IMG/VR virus record: IMGVR_UViG_3300032316_000433
Location: 1-28,487 of that record
DNA length: 28,487 nucleotides
Strand: one strand, 5' to 3'
From: a virus
The translations under genes were made by a program, and so were the position numbers. Positions 13,349-28,487 of the stretch are shown here, piece by piece; positions within the stretch are counted from its first letter, which is position 1; each line of letters begins with the position of its first letter. Under the pieces are notes generated by a model that worked only from the letters and a program-made list of their open reading frames with translations, made no database searches and was not told the DNA's origin.

Positions 13349-14539
13349 TCAGGAGACAGCGCCACCGACGAAACACTTGACAGCACCGGTCTGATCGACC
13401 AGAACACCGTCAGTGCGGAGGCTCACACGGAACGTGCGCACCGAGTAGTCGAACGCGAAGTCGTCAGACACGGCAACTTCAATGCCGTTGACTTCACGAA
13501 TGAAGTACGACGGCAAGTGACCGAATAGGACTGACTTAGCGGCGACCGCAGGGCTGGCGACCGAGTCGTTGATGTAAACGGGGAAGCCGAGCAAATTGTC
13601 GGCGACACCATTCAAACCAGGCTCGAACAGGTAACGGTTCTGCGAGTCCTTCAACTTGCGTGCGTTGGCCATCGCGGTTGAGTTCATCATCCAACCACAA
13701 CCAGGCTGAGCCTTGTACGTGCTTGACACCGAATAGTTCAGGTCAATGAGGTTGTCGGCGGTGAACACACCCGAAACGGCTGCGGCACCAGTGACACCAG
13801 TGGTGGCGTTGGTGACGATACCGTAAGGCTTGCTTGAACCGTCGCCCGTGGTCATGTGACCGCGAGTTGCGACACCGATGGCGATACCTGCCTGCTTGGC
13901 AAGGAAGCCTGCAACATCAACGCTGGAGTCGTTCGCGAGTTCGTTCGACATTTGAACGAGCACGACATACTTGTATGCGCCGAGGGTTGCGGTTCCGAGG
14001 GTCGGATCCGATGCGCTGGCCTGTGCGGCTTCGCCAACAATGCTGGCGGTGCTGAACGCGGTTGACTTCGGAATCGCCAACGACTCACCACTAGCGGTGG
14101 TCAAAACGGTTGCCTGTGCACGCACAATGTTCGCCTGAACCAAATGCTCAACGATGCGGTCATACACCGAGGTGGGGACCATTGTGGCGCTTGACTTAGT
14201 GATGGCACGCTTCTCAAACTTTGCAGTGCGCTGTTCACCTGACAACAAACGGCGAACCGTCACATCATCATGGTCAACTTCAGCGGCAGCGCCACCGAGG
14301 TTTGCGGGAACGCCGAGGCGTGCGCGTGATTCTTGAATGTCACGGTCACGAGTTTCGGCGTCAAGGATTGACTTGATTCGAGCATCTTTGATGTCGAGGT
14401 CTGCGTTGATCCGGTCAAACGTTTGGTTTTCCTCAGCGGACAGATCACGCTTTTCAGCGACTGCCACATCGAGAAGTGCTTTGGCCTGTTCCCATGCCTT
14501 AGCCCGCTCGTCAGATAAATTTGCGATGTATTCGCTCAT
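13349..14539 (-). CDS. Major capsid protein (HK97 fold)
   Basis: A 396-residue protein from the ATG at 14537-14539; an in-frame ATG 20 codons upstream (14599) has a proline-rich leader and no better ribosome binding site. Residues 9-75 form a charged coiled-coil delta (scaffolding) domain (DERAKAWEQAKALLDVAVAEKRDLSAEENQTFDRINADLDIKDARI). This is normally removed by the prohead protease. The mature part follows from about 95 with the HK97 pattern: TVLTTASGESLAIPKST, GEAAQASASDPTLGTATLGAYKYVVLVQMSNELANDS, then GCGWMMNSTAMANARKLKDSQNRYLFEPG. It forms the icosahedral shell. Confidence 0.92.
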   Translation of the reverse strand: MSEYIANLSDERAKAWEQAKALLDVAVAEKRDLSAEENQTFDRINADLDIKDARIKSILDAETRDRDIQESRARLGVPANLGGAAAEVDHDDVTVRRLLSGEQRTAKFEKRAITKSSATMVPTSVYDRIVEHLVQANIVRAQATVLTTASGESLAIPKSTAFSTASIVGEAAQASASDPTLGTATLGAYKYVVLVQMSNELANDSSVDVAGFLAKQAGIAIGVATRGHMTTGDGSSKPYGIVTNATTGVTGAAAVSGVFTADNLIDLNYSVSSTYKAQPGCGWMMNSTAMANARKLKDSQNRYLFEPGLNGVADNLLGFPVYINDSVASPAVAAKSVLFGHLPSYFIREVNGIEVAVSDDFAFDYSVRTFRVSLRTDGVLVDQTGAVKCFVGGAVS

Positions 14540-14615
14540 GGTTTTTGTTCCATTTCTGTTTGGGGGGTTGATGTTTTGGGGGGGTTCAGGTGGTGACATT
14601 CTGAGGTGGTGCCAG

Positions 14616-19207: not shown

Positions 19208-19468
19208 GGCGGCATCCCGCCCTCGTCGCGCTAGGTCGGCGAGTCGGGCGCGTTGGGTGTTCGCCCTGGCCACATTGCACTGCTTACAACTTGCGCGCAG
19301 ATTGGTTGGGTCGAGGCGTGGTCCGCCGTCGCGTAGTGCGACGATGTGGTCGACTTCGGTGGCGGTGGTTGTGCAGTTGGGTGCGCCGATGGTGCAGGTG
19401 TGGTTGTCGCGTTCGAGTATTTGTGCGCGTACTTTGCGCCATCGTGAGTCGTAGGGGTTGGGTGGCAT
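19187..19468 (-). CDS. HNH endonuclease
   Basis: A 93-residue HNH nuclease. Zinc-type cysteines are C25, C32, C61 and C64 (C-x-x-C in CKQC); the HNH core is VDHIVALRDGGP (39-50, with D40 and H41) and LDPTNLRASCKQCN (52-65, with N56). HNH proteins encoded next to the terminase genes act with terminase in DNA packaging in several cos phages, so cos cleavage is a reasonable role. The ATG is preceded by a C-rich tract (a G-quadruplex motif on the other strand) and has no Shine-Dalgarno sequence, which is unusual in this genome. Confidence 0.9.
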   Translation of the reverse strand: MPPNPYDSRWRKVRAQILERDNHTCTIGAPNCTTTATEVDHIVALRDGGPRLDPTNLRASCKQCNVARANTQRARLADLARRGRDAAPPSRGW

Positions 19469-19493
19469 GGGGGGTGGGGGGTGGGGGTGGGGG
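19469..19493 (+). promoter_or_regulatory. Strong G-quadruplex motif
   Basis: The plus strand reads G6-T-G6-T-G5-T-G5: four long G runs with single-base loops, close to the ideal for a parallel G-quadruplex. The plus strand is the template for all transcripts, so a folded quadruplex would block RNA polymerase between the primase and HNH genes. It could also act in replication. Further G runs lie at 19628-19640. Confidence 0.7.
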
Positions 19494-19516
19494 TGTTGAT
19501 GGTGGGGCTGTGTTGT

Positions 19517-23406: not shown

Positions 23407-23866
23407 TTGTTGCCTCCATTCGTTTTTTTACTGCTTGCCTACGTCGTGCCAATGCGACGAGTTGACGCCTGCGCTGGTCGCCTGTCTCACATTCATCACA
23501 CAACAGTTCCCCAAGACTGCGGTGGCGTCGTACTGCTGTCGCAGTACCGTGTGCGCCTCCACGGTTACCTGAGCCGATGTTAGTTGATGGTTCGGTGCCA
23601 CCCCACCGTCGGACATGCAACCCGACCATGCGCAGATGGTTGATTCGTTCGTTTCGTGACCAGCCACCGAACACACCATAGGTGTCATAGTTTTGTGCGA
23701 GGTGCAGTGAGTATTCGCGGCATTGCATCATGACGGGGCATGTTTCGCATATCTTTTTTGCTTCACGGATTTTGAGCAGGTCGCCACGGGTCGCCATAAA
23801 GATGTCGGCGTCGAGTCCACGGCATGAGGCGTGTTCTGCCCAACCTTTCGTGGTGGTCACGCTCAT
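23399..23866 (-). CDS. whiB: WhiB-family transcription regulator with C-terminal extension
   Basis: A 155-residue iron-sulfur regulator found only in Actinobacteria and their phages. Cluster ligands are C15, C40, C43 and C49 (C-E-T-C-x5-C). The turn motif GVFGGWS at 64-70 is the usual G-V/I-W-G-G. Canonical WhiB proteins end soon after this. Here about 70 more residues follow, with a second C-D-E-C pair (123-126) and a basic helix QRRRQLVALARRRQAVKKRM at the end. The start at 23866 overlaps the stop of the 31-residue gene. In host cells WhiB proteins bind the principal sigma factor, so this one may redirect host RNA polymerase. Confidence 0.88.
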   Translation of the reverse strand: MSVTTTKGWAEHASCRGLDADIFMATRGDLLKIREAKKICETCPVMMQCREYSLHLAQNYDTYGVFGGWSRNERINHLRMVGLHVRRWGGTEPSTNIGSGNRGGAHGTATAVRRHRSLGELLCDECETGDQRRRQLVALARRRQAVKKRMEATNE

Positions 23867-23958
23867 TGTTTTTGTTTGTTCAGTGTCACGATGGTGGAGA
23901 GACATCCGATACAGAAGCCGGATGCTACACCACACCAGAACATGATAAAGGTGAGCAT
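23863..23958 (-). CDS. Tiny membrane protein (31 aa) coupled to WhiB
   Basis: A 31-residue ORF, beginning MLTFIMFWCGVASGFCIGCLS and ending in a polar NKQKQ. One transmembrane segment covers about residues 3-26, with C-x-x-C near its end. Its start overlaps the stop of the gene upstream (TGATG) and its stop overlaps the WhiB start (ATGA), so it fits the operon exactly and is likely translated. The function is unknown; it may also serve as a coupling leader for WhiB. Confidence 0.6.
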   Translation of the reverse strand: MLTFIMFWCGVASGFCIGCLSTIVTLNKQKQ

Positions 23959-24134: not shown

Positions 24135-24403
24135 TTGTTCACCTTTTTCGTTTCCAGATAGGCGTTCACGCGATGGGTGAGTTCAAGCAGTAGATCGTTC
24201 TCGTCGAGTAGTCCGCGGCCCTCAACGGATGCGAGATACAAGCTGCACACTGAGACGATTGTGCGCAGGTCGATACATTCCTCGCGTAGGCGTTCTATGT
24301 GTTGCAGGCGCAACTGGTTCTGTTCTGTTAGCCGTTCGTTACTTGATGTCAGGTCTGTTACTACGGTCTGGTAATACTGTGTTTCAGGGTTGTTGTCGCT
24401 CAT
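24131..24403 (-). CDS. Coiled-coil small protein
   Basis: A 90-residue protein with a long charged coiled coil at about 14-50 (VVTDLTSSNERLTEQNQLRLQHIERLREECIDLRTIV), a leucine-rich middle (SVCSLYLASVEGRGLL) and a helical end ELTHRVNAYLETKKVNK. A perfect AAGGAGG stands seven bases before the ATG, the strongest ribosome binding site in the early region, so high expression is expected. It overlaps the end of the upstream gene by 20 bases. I do not recognise a family. Confidence 0.7.
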   Translation of the reverse strand: MSDNNPETQYYQTVVTDLTSSNERLTEQNQLRLQHIERLREECIDLRTIVSVCSLYLASVEGRGLLDENDLLLELTHRVNAYLETKKVNK

Positions 24404-24542
24404 TTTGTTCCTCCTTGTTTTTTGGGTTTAACATTCGCCCCAACATGTCGTCGAGGCGTAACACTTCCTGCTGGATGTCCTGCCGTGATGTTGCGATGTG
24501 TCGCAACACTTCCCGCAACGCTTGAATGTCTGCTTTTTTCAT
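24384..24542 (-). CDS. Small helical protein (52 aa) after the tRNA-like gene
   Basis: Fifty-two residues from the ATG at 24540-24542 (MKKADIQALREVLRHIATSRQDIQQEVLRLDDMLGRM), predicted as two amphipathic helices, ending in a polar tail. The reading frame extends to 24575, but that part runs through the acceptor and T arm of the tRNA-like sequence, so I prefer the shorter form. The ATG begins three bases after the tRNA-like 3' end and has no Shine-Dalgarno sequence. The function is unknown. Confidence 0.6.
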   Translation of the reverse strand: MKKADIQALREVLRHIATSRQDIQQEVLRLDDMLGRMLNPKNKEEQNERQQP

Positions 24543-24630: not shown

Positions 24631-24650
24631 ACGACCTCAGATGAGGTCGT
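24631..24650. promoter_or_regulatory. 20-bp perfect inverted repeat at the SSB-like gene end
   Basis: Nine-base arms (ACGACCTCA and TGAGGTCGT) are separated by two bases. The element covers the last codons and stop of the SSB-like gene and stands 11 bases upstream of the tRNA-like sequence. In RNA it gives a tight hairpin without a following U run, so an RNase processing site or 3'-end protector is more likely than a terminator. As DNA it could be a protein-binding palindrome. Confidence 0.55.
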
Positions 24651-24978
24651 CGTCACCAGTCCCACGCACCACTGCGACAGTGAACTGCTTGAGGGTTTTG
24701 CCACCGGCACGCTTCTCTACACCAACGAAATTGATGGTGAGTGTGTCGCCGACGTTGGGTCGTGCTTCAGCGAGTTTGGCGCCGAGTTGCATCTGTCCTG
24801 CCGTGAGGGTGCGGTCACCTTCAGCGGTTCGGATGATGAGTTTTGCTGCACGCTTTCCATCCTCGAATGTGTGGATGGATACATCCAGGACTGTGCCTGA
24901 TACTGAGTCGCCGACGGTTTCAAACTTTACGAAATCGCTTGACGGTTTTACTGCGGGATCATCCCAAATGCTGCTCAT
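24637..24978 (-). CDS. SSB-like OB-fold protein
   Basis: A 113-residue protein. The middle SVSGTVLDVSIHTFEDGKRAAKLIIRTAEGDRTLTAGQMQLGAKLAEARPNVGDTLTINFVGVEKRAGGKTLKQFTVAVV reads as a beta-barrel of the OB type, and the C-terminus is the acidic tip GDDDLI, reminiscent of the protein-binding tail of bacterial SSB (DDDLPF). It directly follows the RecB-like exonuclease with a 4-base overlap, a usual pairing in phage recombination operons. It likely binds single-stranded DNA. The motif AACCCAACCC at 25000-25010 precedes its ribosome binding site. Confidence 0.7.
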   Translation of the reverse strand: MSSIWDDPAVKPSSDFVKFETVGDSVSGTVLDVSIHTFEDGKRAAKLIIRTAEGDRTLTAGQMQLGAKLAEARPNVGDTLTINFVGVEKRAGGKTLKQFTVAVVRGTGDDDLI

Positions 24979-26618
24979 TTTCTTTTTCCTTTTGTTGTTG
25001 GGTTGGGTTGTTGTTCTGCGCCGATAACAATGGTGCCATCGTCGGAGATTTTGATGTTGGCGGTGCCGTCGTATGCGGCGTTCGCCAATGTAGTGATTCT
25101 GTGGGCGGCGTTGGTGGATAGTGCACCGATTTGTGCGCCGAGTGTCTTGTCAACTTCTGTGAACGGGTTACCTGCCACCAGTACGGCCTGCATCAGTTCG
25201 GTGTCGTCGAGGCGGGTGAGCGCCACCATCATCGAGGCGATGGCACAACGGCGCACTGTCGGGTTTTGTCGGATGCTTATGCCACGCCTGCCGATGGTGG
25301 CCTGTTTGGTGAATTGGGCGATGAATGCCCGCTGACGGTCAGGCAACGCACCGATGACGTCTTTTAAGGCGTCTATGTGGTCTTGTGGGGCGTTCCCGCC
25401 TTCATCGGGTGTATCTGGAACGGGTTGCGCTTTCGGTGCGTCAGGCGGTGCGACAGCAGGTTCGTTGGGGTTCCGGTCAGGGAACTGAAAACCGTGCTCA
25501 GCCTCAACCTGATAGCACGCGTCACTGATCAGATCAATTTCACGGGTGGTGTGCAACGCATGGTCACGCAATTTCGGCACATGCGCAGGCCATCTGGCGG
25601 CGAGTTCACGCTTCACATCATCGCCGAACGCGACCAGGCGTCGTACACGCTTTTCGAGCCATGCCCGATGTTCAGCGGTAGCGACTGGTTCGGTGTGCGG
25701 GAACGCTGCGGTGACGTTAGCGATAGCGGTTTCTAGGAGGGTGGGCGCAGGTGTCACGGGAACAGGGGGGTGCTCTACCGTGACTCCTGCACCCGTATCG
25801 GTGCCCACATTGCCGCGTGACGGCACCGAAAACTTGCGCACGACATCCTTGCGTTTCTGCCACTTTTTGACCACAGACGCCAACTGTGCAGCCTCTAATC
25901 CGAGAGTCAAATCCACTTCGATCAGATGACATTCGCCACGACCAGCGGGCACATGAATCAACAACCCGACCTCATGGTCAACATCACCGATGTCATACCG
26001 TCGCCCTGTGGCGATTTCGTAGCCCTGTGATGTCGCATAGGCGGCGAGCTGCACCGCGTACGCCAACGGGTTCGCACCGATCGCCTTGCCTGTTTTCAGG
26101 TCGGCGCACACTAGACGCCCATCGGCACGACGCAGGAAACGGTCAGCAGTACCGGCCAACATCAACCCGTCGTGCACCAATGTCACCTCAACCAAACCAG
26201 GCTCAATGGTCAAACCTGCGTCAGCGAGTGTTCGTTGGTAGGCGGCGATGTCGGCATCCCACGGTGCAGGAATATCTGCGACGGTCATTAAACCGTTGTC
26301 AACGTTCTCAGCGAATTCGTGGAGTGCGGTACCGAGACCTGCACCATATCCGCCACCGCCAGCCTCCAGTGCTTGTTCCATGAGGGCATCGAGTCGTTTG
26401 GTGTCGTCGGCTGGTGTTGCTGCCATTTGTGCGAACAGGTCGGCCCGTGACGATAGCCCTTTGCCTGCTGTACGGATTTTCCAGCGTTCCAATCCGAAAC
26501 GGTCCTCAAGGCATGCGCCGTGACTACTGAACCTGGTGTATGGGATTGGTGTTCCGTCGGTCACTGATGTGACCATTGGGCGACCGTAACGGTCGCGTGT
26601 GAAGTCTTGCGGTTTCAT
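24975..26618 (-). CDS. RecB/Cas4-family PD-(D/E)XK exonuclease with C-terminal extension
   Basis: A 547-residue protein. The nuclease domain covers about 85-260: GTALHEFAE (96-104, H100), LAGTADRF (154-161, D159), CADLKTGK (171-178, D173 and K175) and QLAAY (190-194), the full motif set of the RecB nuclease family. The C-terminal half has a helical region TAEHRAWLEKRVRRLVAFGDDVKRELAARWP, a proline-rich linker (APPDAPKAQPVPDTPDEG), and an ending with repeated helices. It probably resects double-stranded DNA ends for recombination with the SSB-like partner. AGAGGGAA precedes the start, and AACCCAACCC lies before that (26642-26652). Confidence 0.85.
   Translation of the reverse strand: MKPQDFTRDRYGRPMVTSVTDGTPIPYTRFSSHGACLEDRFGLERWKIRTAGKGLSSRADLFAQMAATPADDTKRLDALMEQALEAGGGGYGAGLGTALHEFAENVDNGLMTVADIPAPWDADIAAYQRTLADAGLTIEPGLVEVTLVHDGLMLAGTADRFLRRADGRLVCADLKTGKAIGANPLAYAVQLAAYATSQGYEIATGRRYDIGDVDHEVGLLIHVPAGRGECHLIEVDLTLGLEAAQLASVVKKWQKRKDVVRKFSVPSRGNVGTDTGAGVTVEHPPVPVTPAPTLLETAIANVTAAFPHTEPVATAEHRAWLEKRVRRLVAFGDDVKRELAARWPAHVPKLRDHALHTTREIDLISDACYQVEAEHGFQFPDRNPNEPAVAPPDAPKAQPVPDTPDEGGNAPQDHIDALKDVIGALPDRQRAFIAQFTKQATIGRRGISIRQNPTVRRCAIASMMVALTRLDDTELMQAVLVAGNPFTEVDKTLGAQIGALSTNAAHRITTLANAAYDGTANIKISDDGTIVIGAEQQPNPTTKGKRK
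25000..25010 (-). repeat. AACCCAACCC leader motif (before SSB-like gene)
   Basis: One of five copies of tandem AACCC found 14-23 bases upstream of an early start codon, just ahead of the Shine-Dalgarno sequence. This copy lies inside the end of the exonuclease gene, where it encodes QPNP. Confidence 0.7.
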
Positions 26619-26641
26619 GGGTTCCCTCTTTTGTTGTGGTT

Positions 26642-26652
26642 GGGTTGGGTTA
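26642..26652 (-). repeat. AACCCAACCC leader motif (before exonuclease gene)
   Basis: Tandem AACCC, 23 bases before the exonuclease ATG, in the short gap after the lipoprotein gene. The Shine-Dalgarno AGAGGGAA lies between motif and start. Confidence 0.7.
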
Positions 26653-26681
26653 GGTAATTGTTGTTGATGGGTGTGTCAGAG

Positions 26682-27212
26682 TTACTTGCAACGCTTAGAC
26701 CACGGCTGCCAACCGCACTGCCCTCTGGCTTCCCTGCCCGAATATAGCAGGTAGGCCCAACGCAGATTGGTCGCAGGGTCAAACATTTCGTCTGGTGTGA
26801 TACCGAGGTCGGCCCACCATTCGTGATGGGCAGTCCAGTTGCCTTGTGTCAAACCGTAATCACGACACTGTCGGCCATCATCAGAGTTTGAGCAGGCGTC
26901 GGGTTGACATCTTGATTCACGCCACATGATTTGACCGAGCGTCTGCAAAATGTCGGTGTCGTTAGGCCATCCGACCTGCACCGCCAGCGGTAACCATTCG
27001 ACACAAGGCGTGTCAGAAGGTACGGCCACAGGCGCGAGAGTTGTGGTGGTGCTGGTTGTTGTTGGCGGCAATGTGGTTGGCGGCATTGTGGTGGTTACGG
27101 GGTTCAGGGTGACGGTCGGGTCGGGTTGGGTTGGTGCTGAGACTTGTGCACCGTTGGCTGCTGTTGCGCAGGCGGTGATTACGGCGGCACATAGTACCGC
27201 TGCGATCCTCAC
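26682..27212 (-). CDS. Secreted lysozyme/transglycosylase-like lipoprotein
   Basis: A 176-residue protein. A signal peptide with lipobox I-T-A-C (12-15) suggests a lipoprotein anchored at C15. A Thr/Pro-rich linker follows (about 35-65, TTTMPPTTLPPTTTSTTTT). The C-terminal domain (about 72-176) is lysozyme/SLT-like: QTLGQIMWRESRC (90-102, catalytic E99), YGLTQGNW (119-126) and NLRWAYLLYSGR (149-160). Six cysteines after residue 69 could form disulfides outside the cell. It lies among early genes, far from the lysis cassette. It could remodel the wall for infection, block superinfection, or be a virion or lysis enzyme. Confidence 0.75.
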   Translation of the reverse strand: MRIAAVLCAAVITACATAANGAQVSAPTQPDPTVTLNPVTTTMPPTTLPPTTTSTTTTLAPVAVPSDTPCVEWLPLAVQVGWPNDTDILQTLGQIMWRESRCQPDACSNSDDGRQCRDYGLTQGNWTAHHEWWADLGITPDEMFDPATNLRWAYLLYSGREARGQCGWQPWSKRCK

Positions 27213-27421
27213 GCGCCTGCCTTGTCGTGGCTGGTGTGATTGTTGTTGTTCATATTGGTTTCCTTTGTTCGACTAGATGGGTGGCGAATCAGTGCGCATT
27301 GGTGCGTGGGGTGCAGGTAGTTCTGCACGGTGAGAAAGGTGAGACCACAGGCGACGCAGCGCACGGGGCGAGGTTTGCCCGTTTTCGGGTTCTGACCATC
27401 TGAACAGTTCGTGACGGTCAT
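27209..27421 (-). CDS. Small zinc-finger-like protein (70 aa)
   Basis: Seventy residues with a Cys/His cluster: CVACGLTFLTVQNYLHPTHQCALIRH (22-47), fitting a C-x-x-C...H-x-x-x-C/H zinc site. The C-terminus overlaps the start of the lipoprotein gene (ATGA). An internal ATG (27251-27253 region, MNNNNHTSHDKAGA) has AAAGGAAA upstream, so a 14-residue leader form coupled to the lipoprotein is also possible. A DNA- or RNA-binding role is inferred only from the zinc pattern. Confidence 0.65.
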   Translation of the reverse strand: MTVTNCSDGQNPKTGKPRPVRCVACGLTFLTVQNYLHPTHQCALIRHPSSRTKETNMNNNNHTSHDKAGA

Positions 27422-27427
27422 GTCAAG

Positions 27428-27625
27428 TCACCCTCGCCCTGCCCTGTACTCGCGCACATACTGCGCCCATACCGACGCACACGGTGCGCAGGGCGGTTCG
27501 TGGTGTCTCCGGTGGCGAGCATACGCGGCGAGGGTGCCGCACGGTCGGGTGACGGGCCTGCCTGGTTTGCCAGTATTGGCACCGTGTCGGGCACGCCAAG
27601 CGCGTTGATATTCGGCGCTGCTCAT
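27428..27625 (-). CDS. Small basic Cys/His protein (65 aa)
   Basis: Sixty-five residues: MSSAEYQRAWRARHGANTGKPGRPVTRPCGTLAAYARHRRHHEPPCAPCASVWAQYVREYRAGRG. The pattern C-G-T-x-x-A-Y-x-R-H-x-x-H-x-E-P-P-C-x-x-C...Y-x-R-E-Y-R is a recurring small protein of actinophages and actinobacterial prophages, probably zinc-binding. Its function is not known to me. It overlaps the membrane protein gene upstream by 4 bases (ATGA). Confidence 0.75.
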   Translation of the reverse strand: MSSAEYQRAWRARHGANTGKPGRPVTRPCGTLAAYARHRRHHEPPCAPCASVWAQYVREYRAGRG

Positions 27626-27804
27626 TTGCGGTTCCGTTCATGATGTTCGGCGTAGGCGGTCAGTGCACCAACGGCGCTGAGTATGACAACCCAAATCCAG
27701 AACACACCGAACGTGGTACCAATGTAGTCGAGCAGTGACAGGGCGGCGTATAGGGCGACGAGTAGTGCGACAGCCCGTACCGCGTAACGAGTGATGGTTT
27801 TCAT
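27622..27804 (-). CDS. Small membrane protein (60 aa)
   Basis: Sixty residues: short basic N-terminus (MKTITRYAVR), then two hydrophobic segments (AVALLVALYAALSLL and FGVFWIWVVILSAVGALTAY) and a basic end EHHERNRK. AGGAG lies before the ATG and AACCCAACCC before that (27820-27830). Two-helix early membrane peptide; the function is unknown. A superinfection-exclusion role would be possible but is only a guess. Confidence 0.75.
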   Translation of the reverse strand: MKTITRYAVRAVALLVALYAALSLLDYIGTTFGVFWIWVVILSAVGALTAYAEHHERNRK

Positions 27805-27819
27805 GTTTGTTCTCCTGTT

Positions 27820-27830
27820 GGGTTGGGTTA
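27820..27830 (-). repeat. AACCCAACCC leader motif (before 60-aa membrane protein)
   Basis: Tandem AACCC, 15 bases before the ATG at 27804, followed by AGGAG. Preceded directly by the stop of the 52-residue gene. Confidence 0.7.
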
Positions 27831-27834
27831 GTGA

Positions 27835-27993
27835 TTATTTTGAACGAGACAAGATTTTGAGTTCGTGGTAGTCGTCTTGACATTCCGAACAGGTGCCATC
27901 GGGGTTCATCACCGATTGGTCATAGTGGGTGTCGCATACATTTTCGTGAACTTTCAGTGCTCGTTCAGCGATGTCGTGGTTGTTGGTGCTCAT
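27835..27993 (-). CDS. Small Cys/His protein (52 aa)
   Basis: A 52-residue ORF beginning MSTNNHDIAERALKVHENVCDTHYD, with C-D-T-H in the middle and T-C-S-E-C near residues 35-40, followed by DDYHELKILSRSK. Two Cys/His pairs suggest a zinc ribbon. AAGGAG is about six bases before the ATG, and AACCCAACCC-like sequence (28009-28024) is ahead of it. The gene follows the same pattern as its neighbours in spacing and ribosome binding site, so I am fairly sure it is real. Confidence 0.7.
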   Translation of the reverse strand: MSTNNHDIAERALKVHENVCDTHYDQSVMNPDGTCSECQDDYHELKILSRSK

Positions 27994-28008
27994 GTTGTTC
28001 TCCTTTTC

Positions 28009-28024
28009 GGGTTGGGTCGGGGTT
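28009..28024 (-). repeat. AACCC-type leader motif (before 52-aa Cys/His gene)
   Basis: AACCCC, GACCC and AACCC blocks, 15 bases before the ATG at 27993, followed by AAGGAG. One block has G for the first A, so it is slightly diverged from the others. Confidence 0.65.
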
Positions 28025-28203
28025 CAGATGCGTTCAAAATTGATTTGATTGTCGGGCAGAACGTTGATGCTGAAAACAGTTTGACCTGCTTTTGCATTGT
28101 CTAGATCGGTTTTTGCGTTTGTGAATTGTTCAGCAGTTTTTGCTGTTCGCATCAAGTAGCGAGCCACTCTGATTTGTTGGTTGATGTCGTTGGTGATGTC
28201 CAT
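28024..28203 (-). CDS. First early gene, small helical protein (59 aa)
   Basis: Fifty-nine residues from the ATG at 28201-28203 (MDITNDINQQIRVARYLMRTAKTAEQFTNAKTDLDNAKAGQTVFSINVLPDNQINFERI). AAAGGAAAA lies before the ATG, and the three-fold AACCC block (28218-28234) before that. A longer form from the ATG at 28240-28242 would begin exactly where transcription is expected to start from the promoter, so a leaderless 72-residue form is possible. It is the first gene of the early operon. I do not recognise a family. Confidence 0.7.
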   Translation of the reverse strand: MDITNDINQQIRVARYLMRTAKTAEQFTNAKTDLDNAKAGQTVFSINVLPDNQINFERI

Positions 28204-28217
28204 GATGTTTTCCTTTT

Positions 28218-28234
28218 GGGTTGGGTTGGGTTGG
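28218..28234 (-). repeat. Three-fold AACCC leader motif (before first early gene)
   Basis: Three AACCC units in tandem, 14 bases before the ATG at 28203, within the 5' leader of the main early transcript. The Shine-Dalgarno AAAGGAAAA follows immediately. Confidence 0.7.
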
Positions 28235-28248
28235 CTTGTCATACCTCA

Positions 28249-28278
28249 AGTATAAGCACTATCCCGTAGAGATGTCAA
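28249..28278 (-). promoter_or_regulatory. Main early promoter (sigma-70 type)
   Basis: On the minus strand a perfect -35 TTGACA (28273-28278) and a -10 TATACT (28249-28254, five of six) are separated by 18 bases. Transcription should begin near 28242 and run into the early genes. It is the only near-consensus promoter I found, and it stands at the start of a genome whose genes all run in one direction. Confidence 0.8.
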
Positions 28279-28344: not shown

Positions 28345-28379
28345 ACGCCTCGCACCGAGGAGGGAACGGTACGAGGCGT
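28345..28379 (-). terminator. Hairpin at the end of late transcription (circle junction)
   Basis: An 8-bp stem (ACGCCTCG, 28345-28352, with CGAGGCGT, 28372-28379), one mismatch, four more pairs (28354-28357 with 28367-28370) and a 9-base loop. On the minus strand it is followed by a modest T-containing tail (TTTGACGTTT counting the last T of the stem). It stands between the last late gene and the early promoter, where a terminator is expected. The U tract is weak, so termination may be partial. The whole gap (28204-28364 plus 1-71, about 232 bases) holds no gene. Confidence 0.6.
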
Positions 28380-28487
28380 GACGGTGCGCGGGCAGCAGAC
28401 GCGCAACCTATGGCAACACCAGCTGCGCCTGGATGTCACTCGACTTCAGGTTCAACAGGTAACAAACCACCAACACTCAAACGGTGA
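28365..28487. repeat. Terminal direct repeat, right copy
   Basis: Exact copy of 1-123. Positions 28436-28487 therefore repeat the 3' end of the gene at 72-350 and should not be annotated as a separate gene fragment. The repeat begins within the loop of the hairpin at 28345-28379, so only the right copy shows the whole hairpin. Confidence 0.95.

Follow-up and report, generated by a model that had tools for sequence, protein, structure and literature searches.

A tandem AACCC repeat ahead of Shine-Dalgarno sequences in early phage genes, a candidate A/C-rich translation leader

Why do several early genes of one phage share the same short tandem repeat immediately ahead of their ribosome binding sites? 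The repeat, AACCC, contains neither G nor U in the mRNA and precedes several genes of an uncultured phage, the virus record IMGVR_UViG_3300032316_000433, whose full length of 28,487 bp is called here the window and whose annotated genes all lie on the - strand. We favour, as moderately probable, the view that the AACCC block is one form of a G/U-free, unstructured standby or enhancer leader placed just 5' of the Shine-Dalgarno sequence (SD), which would behave as a swappable module and not as an early-gene switch.

Position of the AACCC block

Five early genes, with predicted starts at 28203, 27993, 27804, 26618 and 24978, carry AACCCAACCC on the gene strand, one copy having one mismatch. The leader of gene 1 is a 21-nt A/C run with (AACCC)3 (28214..28234, - strand; the three units at 28218-28232), followed by the SD AAGGA and the ATG at 28203. 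The mismatched block GACCCAACCC (28009..28018, -) precedes the SD AAGGAG and the ATG at 27993 of a 52-aa gene, and AACCCAACCCAACA (27816..27829, -; exact block 27820-27829) precedes the SD GGAG and the ATG at 27804 of a 60-aa gene. A 23-nt A/C run with (AACCC)2 (26629..26651, -; exact block 26642-26651) leads to the SD GAGGG and the exonuclease ATG at 26618. The last one, a 26-nt A/C run with (AACCC)2 (24990..25015, -; exact block 25000-25009), leads to the SD AAGGA and the ATG at 24978 and overlaps the 3' end of the exonuclease gene, where it encodes QQPNPTTK. From the end of the block to the start codon there are 21, 23, 15, 15 and 14 nt for the blocks at 25000, 26642, 27820, 28009 and 28218, respectively. 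The blocks stand 3-12 nt ahead of the SD, and the A/C-rich, G/U-poor runs that end at or near it measure 9-26 nt. The original prediction of a block placed 14-23 nt before five early starts, and kept even over a coding end encoding QPNP, thus holds.

This arrangement is not expected by chance. The window has six AACCC clusters on the mRNA strand (the five leaders and one copy inside a gene) versus 0.09 expected, a number reached in none of 300 dinucleotide shuffles; for the first 4.5 kb alone there are again six, with 0.037 expected. The in-gene AACCCAACCC (27123..27132, -) encodes part of the Thr/Pro linker of an SLT lysozyme-like gene and is conserved in relatives; it lies 504 nt from the next start and is not part of the leader element. 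The gene that carries it, at 26682-27212, is located in the early region and not among the late genes. A further exact copy (2545-2554) is found within a late gene, on the opposite strand. A comparison of 24.0-28.5 kb with the Rfam covariance models, at E up to 1, gave no match.

The same association is found well beyond this phage. In IMG/VR, CAACCCAACCCAAC before AGGA...ATG occurs in 84 stretches, several of them near-duplicates, versus 4 for the reverse complement and 9 for a composition-matched scramble that is not periodic. Unrelated phages mostly have the block at one place per phage. At other SD-led starts of the viral loci fetched, upstream A/C runs of at least 12 nt outnumber G/T runs by 14 to 2, the ratio being 1 to 3 in the bacterial loci; this contrast is suggestive only because the loci were selected by the block pattern. 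Bacterial genomes gave 68 stretches in a scan of 257 Gb; these are spread over many phyla and provide no lead to a host.

Conservation, replacement and packaging in relatives

IMG/VR scans, which needed exact matches, yielded three relatives of near-genome length (G001, G002 and G003, 28.6-30.6 kb), a 16-kb contig (G004), fragments, and the more distant sequences L153-L157. Blocks recur ahead of early genes in most relatives, as the original prediction had anticipated for a functional element, and are still present where identity of the downstream 113-aa protein has dropped to 61-64% and the GC content is 60-70%. The block or a close form of it is found before the orthologous exonuclease starts of G001-G004 and L155-L157.

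The block before the 113-aa gene is coding, inside the exonuclease frame, in the window and G001-G003; it is half coding in L155-L157, where QPNPT is followed by a stop and the block ends at or near the exonuclease stop codon; and it is wholly intergenic in L154. Across these states the constant is the position of the block beside the same downstream SD. In the window, each of the final 14 exonuclease codons has A or C in third position versus 57% in the gene body (p=4e-4), a wobble bias that is similar in G001 and G002, less marked in G003 and L153 and without significance in L154-L157. Selection for the QPNP peptide was rejected as an explanation, since the locus is non-coding in L154 and the 10-nt copy-number difference that separates G001 from G002 is not divisible by three. 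Ahead of the orthologous MKPHW gene, one of these two genomes has two whole repeat units more than the other, between almost unchanged flanks.

The block can also be replaced. In L153 the exonuclease leader is CTAACAACAGCAGCAACGAAAGG (replacement CAACAGCAGCAACG) and that of the 113-aa gene is CAACAACACCAACAACAACAGCAACGAAAGG (replacement CAACAACACCAACAACAACAGCAACG), both A/C-rich and without AACCC. Within the window, the gene starting at 24403 has an A/C run AAACCCAAAAAACAA (24415..24429, -) with a single AACCC unit before its SD GGAGG, and its orthologues keep the leaders TGAACCCAAAAACACAAGGAGG and CTCAACCCAAAAACCCAAGGAGG. Another run, AACAAACAAAAACAA (23866..23880, -), reaches into the ATG (23866-23864) of the WhiB-like gene, which matches PF02467. 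The major capsid gene, a late gene with its ATG at 14539, is preceded by AACCCCCCCAAAACA-T-CAACCCCCCAAACA (14557..14586, -), its leader being AACCCCCCCAAAACATCAACCCCCCAAACAGAAATGG, without an AACCC repeat. The leader of this gene stays A/C-rich in 19 family sequences (some contigs counted twice), including a homologue of 76% identity, with changing run lengths and no conservation of sequence. Because the L153, capsid, 24403 and 23866 leaders are all A/C-rich, the leader feature, as read in these genomes, extends beyond early genes and is not strictly AACCC. It is literally true, as first claimed, that no late gene has the exact block, but the late capsid gene has its own A/C-rich leader. Antisense pairing of the block with the late-gene GTTGGGTTGGGTT (complement at 2545-2557) was rejected because neither G001 nor G002 has such a copy.

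At the early/late junction, a 31-nt A/C run (CAACACCCCCACCCCCACCCCCCACCCCCCA, 19468-19498) lies directly 5' of the ATG of an open reading frame (ORF), without SD. A compositional strand switch is found near 19500, close to the same junction, although the annotated genes share one strand.

In several relatives a GC hairpin without U-tract, with a perfect stem of 11 bp and a loop of 4 nt, stands directly 5' of the block. Across seven copies of the hairpin, one stem pair varies with both partners changed (C-G to U-A). The hairpin GGYGGCGGCCA-NNNN-TGGCCGCCRCC recurs between early genes in L059, L061, L063, L066, L075 and L149, usually soon after the upstream stop codon, with loops that in some copies are GCAA or GGAA, of the GNRA type. 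A strong hairpin directly before CAACCCAACCC and the SD is also present in L084, L067, L116 and L126, viral contigs retrieved solely via the block pattern.

Gene 1 and its relatives add another start configuration. A predicted early promoter, TTGACA-18-TATACT (28249..28278, -; 11/12 consensus matches), is followed 6 nt after its -10 hexamer by an ATG at the predicted transcription start (28240..28242, -), which would make a 5'-terminal AUG. The -10-like hexamer (TATACT; TACACT in L075) lies exactly 6 nt before an ATG in seven family contigs, and G003 is alike by reading. As the promoter-adjacent ATG opens the gene, the first gene is predicted to be leaderless in G002, G004, L075, L149 and L158. 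In the window, G001 and G003 (3/3 cases) this ATG, at 28242 in the window, is in frame, through the block, with an SD-led ATG (here 28203), so that dual leaderless and SD initiation giving two N-termini is possible; gene 1, and it alone, would then belong to the class of mRNAs with a 5'-terminal AUG plus SD (PMC4965119), its start site being predicted. The NNDIAELVALLP-type gene is predicted to be leaderless in G004, has SD and block in L158, and hairpin and block in L075; in the latter contig the gene related to the 52-aa gene has the hairpin and (AACCC)n at the leader position. Since one gene family is predicted leaderless in one relative and has SD and block in others, the block thus seems to appear where a gene depends on SD initiation.

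An open leader and competing explanations

How could such a repeat act? A sequence made of A and C only would not pair with itself and would pair poorly with its surroundings, and therefore it would keep the SD and AUG exposed and offer a single-stranded standby site to the 30S subunit, raising initiation on genes with a non-leaderless start. The tandem pentamer would be a convenient, slippage-prone way to write such an A/C leader, a module copied and exchanged among genes of the phage family, often behind the GC-rich hairpin, which may shield the leader from the message of the preceding gene. Folding predictions are in line with this. Over 35 leaders, many of them homologous, the computed exposure of SD and AUG is 0.68 for the native sequence, 0.60 after replacement of the block by random early-region sequence and 0.51 with the block reverse-complemented, Wilcoxon p-values for these differences being too optimistic as they treat related leaders as independent. 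An open A/C leader would account for the position, the strand, the tolerance to replacement, the copy-number changes and the coding overlap. Among the roles first proposed for the block, a translation enhancer is the most consistent with an RNA-sense, start-associated element kept in relatives, whereas a switch specific to early genes is not supported because capsid leaders are A/C-rich too.

Several observations weigh against this being the whole explanation. Long A/C runs also occur within the primase gene, and on the mRNA strand A and C together make up 0.61 of the first 9 kb counted from the early promoter versus 0.48 of the remainder; since the early region is generally A/C-rich on that strand, the leader signal is partly regional. 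(Early-versus-late A/C composition figures were computed with the first-pass starts 14599 and 28206, for which 14539, of the major capsid gene, and 28203, of gene 1, are the better starts.) The opening effect that folding predicts is modest, and some leaders lack it, e.g. G001 20111 and L156 5427. The exact pentamer persists over the large divergence of L154-L157 and outnumbers one scrambled control nine to one. Some preference for AACCC beyond composition is left, part of which could be explained by repeat slippage alone.

This preference could mean that AACCC repeats are a specific enhancer word in many unrelated phages, the spacing of C-triplets by AA being read by the ribosome or a host factor beyond the lack of structure and giving an initiation advantage; in this family it would be a hairpin-packaged portable module for newly acquired early genes. 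We hold this to be rather unlikely. It is likewise unlikely, and a shade more doubtful, that the block is a sequence-specific site where a trans-acting phage or host RNA-binding protein, or a ribosomal component, recognises the C-triplets spaced by AA and coordinates a regulon. The persistence of exact AACCC to 61-64% protein identity and at 60-70% GC, the 84 viral stretches versus 9 for a scramble of the same composition and the sharing of the block by five genes of one phage speak for such a binder. A dedicated site is nevertheless weakened by L153, which swaps both conserved leaders for different A/C-rich sequence, and by the capsid gene, which never has the AACCC repeat; the copy number (about 2 to 5) and the spacing to the SD (3 to 12 nt) also vary and Rfam gave no match.

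Near-identical cassettes of hairpin and block before different genes in G001-G003, L075 and L149, and the finding of the same gene with and without the module, would fit a different role, in which both are kept mainly because they provide gene shuffling with a stretch of homology at gene ends, any effect on translation coming second. We give this little credence as it leaves unexplained why the block adjoins the SD, why a strand asymmetry is seen across unrelated phages and why most relatives conserve the block at fixed loci (exonuclease, 113-aa gene). A transcription-level element, be it a promoter, a repressor or stoperator site or a Rho-loading (rut) site, appears very unlikely. C-rich, G-poor RNA could bind Rho. 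The start-associated ESAS repeats of cluster K phages hold putative promoters (PMC11373665), but 24.0-28.5 kb of the window has 2 promoter-like matches for 2.1 expected by chance, and only the one at 28278-28249 is beside a block; there is no terminator-like match at the blocks in the window or G002, and the blocks are short (9-36 nt of A/C), tied to the SD and non-palindromic. A promoter or terminator at the blocks was therefore rejected, nothing beyond the early promoter having matched. Folding of the template-strand (GGGTT)n into a G-quadruplex or i-motif that modulates transcription is hardly credible: some leaders in G001, G002, L075 and L158 do have at least four C-runs, but the window blocks have 2-3, too few for an intramolecular three-tetrad quadruplex, and the pattern is absent from the L153 and capsid leaders.

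Genomic setting and relation to known start-associated elements

The window codes for a Prim-Pol/DUF3987 protein, a PD-(D/E)XK exonuclease, a WhiB-like protein, a terminase, a portal and a prohead protease. Terminase and exonuclease share about 30-36% identity with actinophage counterparts and, together with WhiB, this resemblance leads us to predict an actinobacterial host. The ORF of early gene 1 (28024..28203, -; 59 aa) has no PHROG match. The exonuclease gene (24975..26618, -) matches PHROG 466 (E=5e-59) and, above cut-off, PF12705. The conserved 113-aa gene (24637..24978, -) codes for a protein whose eight aligned homologues all match PHROG 1911, of unknown function, weakly (best E=1.7e-5); structure comparison gave no useful match for it. 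A 123-bp direct terminal repeat (1-123 and 28365-28487) is consistent with a circular or terminally redundant genome.

The original prediction that no element of this form had been described was too strong. Start-associated repeats are known in actinophages, as SAS/ESAS in cluster K (PMC3203893) and as motifs in the Microbacterium phage clusters EC, EF, EG and EI (PMC7302621), and A/C-rich enhancers are known in enterobacteria (PMC3879156); the kinds are established and the AACCC form is new. Like the SAS/ESAS of cluster K mycobacteriophages and cluster EF Microbacterium phages (PMC3203893, PMC7302621), the AACCC block is repeated in one orientation at starts of non-structural genes, with five copies directly upstream on the gene strand, and the genes that carry SAS also differ between phages. 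However, SAS is 13 bp long and includes the SD itself, whereas the AACCC block lies 5' of the SD, is a tandem pentamer of variable copy number and is replaceable by other A/C-rich sequence. The upstream inverted repeat of ESAS parallels the GC hairpin found before the block in relatives. In Adephagia, ESAS include putative promoters, and the repeats of ESAS were judged not to form RNA hairpins, in contrast to the perfect stem, without terminator match at blocks, of the AACCC relatives; inspection by reading found no ESAS-like imperfect 17-bp inverted repeat upstream of the window blocks.

The 13-bp SAS GGGATAGGAGCCC (cluster K) and GGGAAAGGACCCC (EF) have 3 and 1 matches in the window with up to 3 mismatches, at or below chance and none at a block-bearing start, and the cluster EC and EG motifs TAGaCTCTaGGTgTaAgC and GATCAACCNNGGTTGATC have none at the same tolerance. 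By these searches the window lies outside the known SAS, EC and EG sequence families. Placement is similar for the asymmetric EC motif, found upstream of the ribosome-binding site 21-30 bp before starts in 12 copies of unknown function (PMC7302621), but the EC, EI and EG sequences are unrelated to the AACCC block.

The Salmonella enhancers are comparable in presumed mode of action: ACA motifs lying in an A/C-rich stretch 5' of the SD stimulate translation, and when these motifs are replaced expression falls by up to 90% for yifK and more than 100-fold for dppA (PMC3879156). The yifK, dppA and gltI enhancers (ACA, CA-repeat) resemble the AACCC leader in being G/U-poor and upstream of the SD without strict spacing; their effect on translation is demonstrated and that of the AACCC leader is predicted. 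They differ in being enterobacterial targets of the small RNA GcvB defined by ACA, which AACCC repeats lack (their flanks have some). Ribosome standby sites provide a single-stranded landing site upstream of the SD (PMC3936740), the predicted counterpart of which in the AACCC leader would stand beside a hairpin in the relatives.

Several groups of actinophages have start-associated repeats on record, without a known role, and the phage family described here offers a comparative handle on them: at one locus the element is coding, half coding or non-coding, it is replaced elsewhere, and it is absent when the gene is predicted to be leaderless. If the open-leader hypothesis is correct, start-associated repeats could be seen as exchangeable modules for translation, with simple A/C leaders as candidate parts for expression in actinobacteria.

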